Below are positions 8,910 to 10,529 of a stretch of DNA of 33,269 nucleotides, in pieces. The DNA comes from an uncultured Lachnospiraceae bacterium (GTDB lineage: Bacteria > Bacillota > Clostridia > Lachnospirales > Lachnospiraceae), in assembly GCA_944380025.1 (NCBI GenBank), contig CALWGL010000004.1, positions 1 to 33,269 of the forward strand, written 5' to 3'. How positions within the stretch are numbered: position 1 is the first letter of the stretch; every line of letters begins with the position of its first letter. A program made the position numbers and the translations under genes. The notes under the pieces were generated by a model, which was not told the origin of the DNA, did not search any database, and saw only the letters and a program-made list of their open reading frames with translations.

Positions 8910-9126
8910 GGCTTCCTCCATCTCATGAACATCAATCTCAGATTCCGTTTTATTTTATCACACCTCCTGACGCTTTTCCATGATATTTTCAGACATGCGC
9001 TCCTGCCGGATGCTTCCTGCCTGTACGTTTTCGTACGGTCTGCGCAGCAAACGCGCAGACCTGGCTGAACAGCAACCGCTCAAATCTTAATTTTTCTTAA
9101 TTTTCCCCAAATCCACATTTTCCATA

Positions 9127-9156
9127 GTGACAACCTCCCTTTCGGTAGACTATAAT
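9127..9156 (+). promoter_or_regulatory. Housekeeping promoter for the DUF3048 lipoprotein gene
   Basis: GTGACA (9127-9132), an 18-nt spacer and a perfect TATAAT (9151-9156) are preceded by an A/T-rich stretch resembling an UP element. Transcription would begin near 9163, just before the leader hairpin. Confidence 0.72.
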
Positions 9157-9164
9157 AAGAGACA

Positions 9165-9232
9165 GCGCCGGCGGGCAGAGCCGCGTAAAGATCCGGGAAG
9201 TTTCCCTTTTGCGCTGTTCTGTCCGCCGGTGC
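9165..9232 (+). promoter_or_regulatory. Long leader hairpin (68 nt) upstream of the lipoprotein gene
   Basis: The outer arms 9165-9179 and 9218-9232 pair over all 15 positions (two G-U). Pairing continues inward at 9180-9181 with 9216-9217, then at 9183-9190 with 9207-9214, then at GGGA/TTCCC around 9195-9206. Nearly the whole 5' untranslated region is therefore one rod. There is no U-tract, so it is not a plain terminator. It ends about 30 nt before the start codon, leaving the ribosome binding region (AGGAAAGAGAGG) free. Confidence 0.6.
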
Positions 9233-9263
9233 GGACTGATTTTCAGGAAAGAGAGGTATACAG

Positions 9264-10418
9264 ATGAAAAAACTGAGCGTAATGCTTTTGCTTGGGCTTT
9301 CCGCCGTCATGCTCCTTGCGGGCTGCGGAGAAAAGGAAACCGCTCCGGAAGAGATCCCGTCCATAACCGGAGAAACCATTCCGGAAAGCGCTCCTGCCGA
9401 AACGGAAGCGGAAACTGAAACCGCGGCGGAGGATGTCCCGCCTCAGGAAGGCATGGTACGCAGCACCCTGACCAATGAATGGATCGACGGCGCCATTGCC
9501 GACCAGAGGCCCATCGCCGTCATGGTCCCCAACAATTCCGCCGCGCTTCCCCACTACAGTCTCTCCAAAGCCGATATCCTGTATGAATGCCCCGTGGAAG
9601 GCGACATTACCCGCCTGATGGCTGTGATCAAGGACTGGGACAGGGACGATATGACCAGGATCGGAAACGTACGGAGCCTGCGTGATTACTTCGCATACTG
9701 GTCCTTTGAATGGGATTCCGTCCTTTTTCATTACGGCGGTCCTTTCTATATTGAAGATGTCATAGAGAAGAGCAGCACGGAGAACGTGACCGGAGCAGGC
9801 TACGGAGAATCCGGAAGGAAGGGTCTCTTTGACGGCGCCTATTACCGTTCCAACGACAGAAAAGCTCCGCACAATGCCTACCTGAGCGCGGAAGGCGTCA
9901 ACAAGGCCCTCGAACACTTCGGCTACTCCAAAACCTACCGGGAGGATTACTATAATCCGGATCATTTCCAGTTCGCGTCCGAATCCTCGCCGAACACCCT
10001 GGAGCAGTACGAAAATTCCTTTGCCGTGAAGAAGATCGACATGTCCGCCTGCTACCCGATCTCTGACACCTATTTTGAATACAACGAAGAGGACGGCCTG
10101 TTCTACCGGTACGAATACGGCGAGCCCCATGTGGACGCCGCCTTCGACAATCAGCAGCTTGCCTTCAAGAACGTGCTGGTACAGTTCGCCTATTATGAGC
10201 AGAGGGACGACAACGGATATCTGGCCTTCCAGGTACACGACGACACCAGGGACGGCTACTTCTTCACCAACGGCCGGGGCATTCATGTCACCTGGGAAAA
10301 GACCGCGGACTACGAGCCCACCAGATATTATGATGATAACGGAAATGAGATCGAACTCAACACCGGAAAGACCATGATCTGTATCGTGGAGGACGGAGAC
10401 GAGTTCGGATATGATTGA
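9264..10418 (+). CDS. DUF3048 (YerB-like) lipoprotein
   Basis: The 384-residue product starts with a lipoprotein signal peptide: MKK, a hydrophobic stretch and the lipobox LLAGC with Cys21. It should therefore be lipid-anchored outside the membrane. An acidic Glu/Thr/Pro/Ala-rich linker extends to about residue 60. The body matches the DUF3048 (YerB) family: RPIAVMVPNNSAALPHYSLS, DILYECPVEGDITRLMAV, IGNVRSLRDYFAY, and the C-terminal half with GRGIHVTWEK and TGKTMICIVED. Family members are widespread in Firmicutes; their biochemical function is not established, though an envelope role is assumed. The gene is monocistronic, with its own promoter, a structured leader and a strong terminator. The length is ordinary for the family. 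Confidence 0.9.
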   Translation: MKKLSVMLLLGLSAVMLLAGCGEKETAPEEIPSITGETIPESAPAETEAETETAAEDVPPQEGMVRSTLTNEWIDGAIADQRPIAVMVPNNSAALPHYSLSKADILYECPVEGDITRLMAVIKDWDRDDMTRIGNVRSLRDYFAYWSFEWDSVLFHYGGPFYIEDVIEKSSTENVTGAGYGESGRKGLFDGAYYRSNDRKAPHNAYLSAEGVNKALEHFGYSKTYREDYYNPDHFQFASESSPNTLEQYENSFAVKKIDMSACYPISDTYFEYNEEDGLFYRYEYGEPHVDAAFDNQQLAFKNVLVQFAYYEQRDDNGYLAFQVHDDTRDGYFFTNGRGIHVTWEKTADYEPTRYYDDNGNEIELNTGKTMICIVEDGDEFGYD

Positions 10419-10481: not shown

Positions 10482-10529
10482 GGGGCTGCCAGGCGCCGTA
10501 TGATCACGGTGCCTGGCAGCCCCTCTTTT
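10482..10529 (+). terminator. Rho-independent terminator after the DUF3048 gene
   Basis: A GC-rich stem with arms GGGGCTGCCAGGC and GCCTGGCAGCCCC (10482-10523) is followed by TCTTTTC. It closes the lipoprotein transcript and also marks the left border of the low-GC island. Confidence 0.9.

Follow-up and report, generated by a model that had tools for sequence, protein, structure and literature searches.

The leader of the DUF3048 gene in the stretch of DNA analysed here carries a 29-pair rod hairpin (9165-9232, + strand) at the predicted 5' end of the mRNA, and we tentatively read this hairpin as a 5'-terminal stabiliser of that mRNA, with a probability of about 0.44. Coordinates are those of the window, by which we mean the whole stretch of 33,269 nucleotides. 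On our reading, the rod is a selected yet dispensable, clade-specific RNA element. As a stabiliser it would act through its position. Transcription would start within about 3 nt of the stem, so that the nascent 5' end would be held next to the 29 pairs of the rod. The pyrophosphohydrolase RppH acts poorly on a 5' end that is short or paired, as does RNase J in 5'-to-3' degradation, and the rod, together with the conserved Shine-Dalgarno sequence downstream, would give the single-gene DUF3048 mRNA a longer life. In this scheme the transcription start, the effect on decay and the enzymes involved are what we infer. The window's own genome contains a gene matching TIGR00649 (625.8 bits against a cut-off of 400; listed as MG423), which we take to be RNase J, and a gene for RNase III (247.7 bits, cut-off 166.25).

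By RNA folding, 9165-9232 forms one single rod with a minimum free energy of -50.1 kcal/mol. Dinucleotide shuffles of the same bases have a mean of -24.6 (sd 2.66), giving the rod a z of -9.59, and 0 of 200 shuffles fold as low. Five of the 29 pairs are G-U; the interruptions are one 1x1 mismatch and one 4-nt bulge, and the terminal loop is 4 nt long. The extent and the approximately 29-pair stem given in an earlier, sequence-only reading of this DNA thus proved exact. Alignment and divergence of the leaders divide the hairpin into a conserved lower stem, with a 5' arm at 9165-9184 (+; alignment columns 15-34) and a 3' arm at 9213-9232 (+; columns 103-123), and a fast-evolving apex at 9185-9212 (+). 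Directly 3' of the stem comes GGACTGATTTTC, which contains no T-tract, again as first described. An intrinsic terminator or attenuator was rejected on this ground, and the rod itself is absent from the list of predicted terminators.

Upstream lies a promoter match with 11 of 12 consensus letters, consisting of a -35 box GTGACA (9127-9132, +), an 18-nt spacer and a -10 box TATAAT (9151-9156, +), the last also seen in the leader alignment. Because the promoter ends at 9156, transcription would start 6-8 nt past the -10 box, at about 9162-9164 (+), which is 1-3 nt before the stem. In all seven aligned leaders (leader lengths 105-149 nt) the stem base lies 8 nt past the -10 box and therefore near the predicted transcription start, although the minimum-free-energy rods of two loci, L046 and L043, start 2 nt further in than the aligned stem base. 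With the position constant in the seven leaders, the claim that the stem begins right after the transcription start stands as a prediction. Two CTTAAT repeats (9086-9101, +) with a spacing of 10 bp are placed at -41 and -31 relative to the -35 box. A [CT]TTAA[TAG] motif is found no more than 60 nt upstream of the -35 box in 25 of the 30 leaders with a recognised promoter (a count that carries no shuffle control), mostly at -10, -20/-21, -31, -36/-37 and -41, several of which are one helical turn apart. The CTTAAT repeats could be an activator site, a response-regulator site that is perhaps kept more widely than the hairpin.

The DUF3048 gene (9264-10418, +) encodes a protein of 384 aa that matches both Pfam DUF3048 domains (PF11258, 9.2e-47; PF17479, 9.3e-32) and is presumably a lipoprotein, from its LLAGC lipobox. 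A terminator-like hairpin of 18 pairs followed by TCTTTTCTCC lies past the gene (10482-10523, +), so the transcript is probably single-gene. The upstream neighbour is an RmlD-type gene on the opposite strand, and thus no annotated gene reads into the hairpin from that side. The Shine-Dalgarno sequence GAGAGG (9251-9256, +) lies outside the rod, whose stem ends at 9232, and mean divergence around it is 0.09 (last 19 alignment columns before the start codon). The ribosome binding site had been described as free; it is indeed free of the rod, but its mean unpaired probability is just 0.43 in the window, and 0.19-0.52 in 13 genus leaders, when 60 nt of coding sequence are included in the fold.

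The window also holds a copy of a high-copy dispersed repeat (9005-9078), in the gap that separates the DUF3048 promoter from the divergent rmlD-type gene. This repeat has 31 matches in 832 kb of the window's own genome, 30 of them of at least 60 bases, with the window copy included. Its consensus is about 97 bases long and contains several hairpins; the window copy is without the first part. A first look gave 164 candidates in the genome, 40 of which were scored, and matches at E <= 1e-5 occur in 10 of 13 genus genomes. A Y1 transposase (PF01797) was not found in the window's genome, which is 84% complete.

The window belongs to Eisenbergiella: its best relatives are in that genus, and of 55 distinct loci the closest is from Candidatus Eisenbergiella pullistercoris (94% identity). 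The DUF3048 gene occurs in all 13 genus genomes searched, the window's own included, with best matches of at least 71% identity. Across the family, 14 of 150 sampled genomes have a match at E <= 1e-100, two of these 14 being from the genus. A protein tree places the window in an eight-species clade with support of 100/99; the genomes that represent the clade in this analysis are metagenome assemblies. The rod is intact in six of the eight species (the window, G001, G002, G003, G008 and G010), with z values from -4.87 to -9.59 and 0 of 200 shuffles as low in each case. Absence of the pairing from close relatives had been named as a reason to abandon the element, and two relatives do depart: G005, the nearest, retains a lower-stem remnant that is no more stable than its shuffles (z -0.17), and the leader of G011 is short and lacks the rod (z -0.40). 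Both retain the gene, the promoter and the Shine-Dalgarno sequence, and the rod is therefore dispensable. The simplest reading of its history is one origin before the clade followed by two losses.

Where the rod is kept, its parts evolve at different rates. The lower stem has a mean divergence of 0.154, against 0.379 at fourfold sites of the same genes, and is the lower of the two in 21 of 21 species pairs, which are not independent; the comparison covers seven alignable leaders, the eroded G005 row included, and leaves the species without the rod (G011) outside the alignment. Divergence reaches 0.553 in the apex, a value that depends on a gappy alignment, and 0.364 in the spacer after the stem. 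With a slow lower stem beside a faster apex and spacer, conservation falls on a long 5'-end stem rather than on a loop.

The covariation analysis that had been proposed gave a divided answer: pairing survives substitutions, but compensatory changes are few and near shuffle level. Twelve of the 24 stem pairs are invariant, five vary on one side only and two have changed on both sides (18/120 and 29/109); the remaining five depart through unpaired cells alone, with 32/105 and 35/102 unpaired in six of seven rows. Overall, 88.7% of cells are paired, and sliding the partners by 1-3 columns lowers this to 31.5-50.0%. In a set of 500 shuffles, the observed covariation score is reached by 21 and the paired share of cells by 23. 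Double-sided changes are reached by 230 shuffles when counted as pairs and by 84 when counted as cells, and the tally of further pair types is reached by 409. With seven sequences and counts this close to the shuffles, covariation alone proves little. RNAalifold also arrives at this lower stem; of its 25 pairs, 3 show double-sided changes in one sequence or more.

The non-Watson-Crick cells are 24 G-U and 5 A-C over 22 pairs, a count that leaves out the mismatch positions 32/105 and 35/102, the latter being A-C in five rows; with all 24 pairs counted, they are 24 G-U and 10 A-C. This bias tilts the balance towards selection for the transcribed strand rather than arm-to-arm copying, but it is partly built in because the stem was defined on the transcribed strand. 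The transcribed strand also folds more stably than its complement, by 9.3-18.4 kcal/mol in five of the six intact copies and by 2.2 kcal/mol in the sixth; the difference is 0.1 in the eroded copy, and 0.9 in the opposite direction in a further rod, found in CE91-St56 and described below. Among 18 control hairpins, drawn from 27 other compact ones, 15 lean to the same strand by 1.4-16.5 and three to the opposite strand. As these controls were picked on that strand, the energy difference gives weak support. The G-U bias and the strand difference together make a DNA cruciform or operator somewhat less likely.

Two scans gauge how rare such a hairpin is in the genome. With the limits E <= -36 and E per nucleotide <= -0.60, 28 compact strong hairpins occur in 433,269 bases (the window plus 20 other stretches of its genome); ranked by energy per base, the rod shares fourth place. 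Six of 315 upstream regions have a lower-energy structure, spanning 110-120 nt against the rod's 68; these regions come from 832,026 bases (the window and 40 stretches) and from a crude gene model that lets coding sequence in. Further compact strong hairpins of the same genome lie at 5502-5585 of L132 and 5233-5316 of L130, both intergenic by the crude gene model.

We also scored leaders with a recognised promoter, using 60 shuffles for each z, in 29 rows comprising 13 genus orthologs, two genus paralogs and 14 others (L055, among the others, is labelled Eisenbergiella), together with 10 control leaders of the window's genome. A z below -3 was obtained for 8 of the 13 genus leaders, namely the six intact rods, CE91-St56 (G006) and G004. 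It was also obtained for 1 of the 14 others (L061) and for none of the 10 controls, the lowest of which was -2.72. We rejected wide conservation of such a structure, 13 of the 14 leaders from outside the genus set having z above -3.

Copy searches give no sign of a repeat. In its own genome the 164-base leader is matched in full once, and so is the 68-base hairpin across the genus; the best partial match to the hairpin is the orthologous leader of G003 (E 2.1e-4). A covariance model built from the seven leaders recovers, in 13 genus genomes, those seven (by construction) and one weak hit at E 0.36, with 150 of 610-1393 candidates scored per genome and some genomes being partly incomplete drafts; six of the seven places are matched on the opposite strand too, as expected of a palindrome. 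The many unrelated copies that a dispersed palindrome would leave, for which a search had been suggested, were thus not found in the genomes searched, and with a single full match and no strong second site a dispersed palindromic (REP/MITE-like) repeat was rejected.

Known RNA classes fare no better. Rfam gives no match at gathering score in the 33,269 bases, and at 8950-9330 just one chance miRNA match (E 4.2). We accordingly set aside a riboswitch or other Rfam family, in agreement with the sequence-only reading, which had recognised no riboswitch. That reading had also raised a response to temperature, which now looks unlikely: neither the ribosome-binding site nor the start codon lies in the rod, so an RNA thermometer was rejected, and the six intact rods, at -43 to -54 kcal/mol, should not melt physiologically.

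Protection of the 5' end is our preferred function because a long stem at a fixed distance from the -10 box, with apex and spacer free to change, is the layout expected of a 5'-end blocker. The review PMC3997798 states for B. subtilis that long stretches of downstream RNA can be stabilised by a hairpin, a ribosome-binding site or a bound protein located at the 5' end or close to it; BsRppH, by the same account, needs a minimum of two unpaired nucleotides at the 5' end and favours three or more. Some features sit less well with a stabiliser. Neither 29 pairs nor a kept stem sequence is needed for one, and the 12 invariant pairs would also fit a partner that recognises sequence. The evidence from outside the clade points both ways, with the structures of G006 and G004 not at the 5' end.

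An unlikely alternative, though one with substance, is that an RNase III-like endonuclease cuts the rod and that the cleaved leader alters mRNA life or translation. The rod is a near-perfect duplex of more than two turns, the genome has the RNase III gene, and the two mismatch positions are each unpaired in six of seven rows. The Ruminiclostridium cip-cel stem-loops, according to PMC10311766, are both cleavage signals and stabilisers; they are, however, intergenic and not 5'-terminal. The proposal is also unspecific, any long duplex being a potential substrate, and it has no need of the fixed place at the predicted transcription start.

Slightly less probable in our view, though also to be taken seriously, is a neutral and transient quasi-palindrome that template switching produced and that is now decaying, without function. 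Erosion in G005 and loss in G011 fit such a fate, as does covariation near shuffle level, and structures of this type evidently do arise, 28 compact hairpins being present in 433 kb. The leader of strain CE91-St56 counts on this side too: there the same gene has a different rod (L047, 2895-2961) of 26 pairs, unrelated in sequence to the window rod and with a single full match in 13 genus genomes; compared with the leader of E. tayi, it amounts to a single additional 69-base block. Against neutrality, the stem is slower than fourfold sites in all of the non-independent pairs while apex and spacer are not, and its register to the -10 box is fixed in seven of seven leaders. Arm-to-arm copying would moreover remove G-U pairs, yet these have been kept, outnumbering A-C on either count.

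The CE91-St56 rod also enters a broader proposal, to which we give a little less credence again: that the lipoprotein-gene leader is a hot spot where long hairpins arise repeatedly and independently within the genus (the window type, the CE91-St56 rod and the paired stems of G004). The gene's output would then be tuned through a leader structure for which any sequence will serve and which disappears when unneeded, a fast-turning control of mRNA life. The unpaired probability of nucleotides 4-12 is 0.45 in G006 and 0.55 in G004 against 0.00 in the window. The structures of G006 and G004 thus do not begin at the predicted 5' end and do not share the layout of the window rod.

More doubtful still is a regulatory site, in which an RNA-binding protein would read the conserved lower stem and control stability or translation. 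Both arms keep their sequence and not just their pairing, half of the pairs being invariant, and the apex is free. On the other side, no loop or bulge motif is kept apart from the two mismatch positions, the one extra match in the 13 genomes is weak (on the share of candidates scored), and the stem is absent or eroded in two of eight species.

Transcription pausing or attenuation, with a switch between the rod and a short hairpin, is very improbable. The short hairpin (GTCCGC-CGGT-GCGGAC, 9221-9236, six pairs) overlaps the 3' arm of the rod and is on the terminator-like list. It is followed by no real T-tract, its stem is mismatched in the six other aligned leaders, judged by eye, and no leader peptide with a Shine-Dalgarno sequence was seen, also by eye. 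A dispersed repeat or mobile palindrome is scarcely credible in spite of the high-copy repeat just upstream, since the hairpin lies outside that repeat, is matched in full just once in the genome and offers no strong second site to the stem model.

Should the stabiliser reading be right, a gut Lachnospiraceae genus would offer a 5' stabiliser that is natural and under selection, with natural variants (intact, eroded, missing and replaced) suited to testing how mRNA life depends on the structure of the leader. In this host the enzyme at work would probably be RNase J, not RNase E. The reading would also draw attention to how a DUF3048 protein is controlled.

Several known systems resemble the rod. 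One is the B. subtilis aprE leader, with ermC and cryIIIA as wider kin, in which a structure at or near the 5' end is followed by a Shine-Dalgarno sequence (PMC3997798, which cites work on the aprE leader); the window stem differs in having 29 pairs, and its effect on half-life is a prediction. The 5'-terminal stem-loops of E. coli ompA and papA likewise sequester the 5' end by pairing, but decay in E. coli proceeds via RppH and RNase E, whereas this genome has an RNase J-type gene. In Ruminiclostridium cellulolyticum, the cip-cel stem-loops are GC-rich clostridial mRNA structures that affect stability and cleavage; according to PMC10311766 they are intergenic within an operon and tied to processing, whereas the rod is in a single-gene leader at the predicted transcription start. 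Stabilising stem-loops at the 5' end are thus already known, and by its anatomy the window rod most likely joins them, at a new place.
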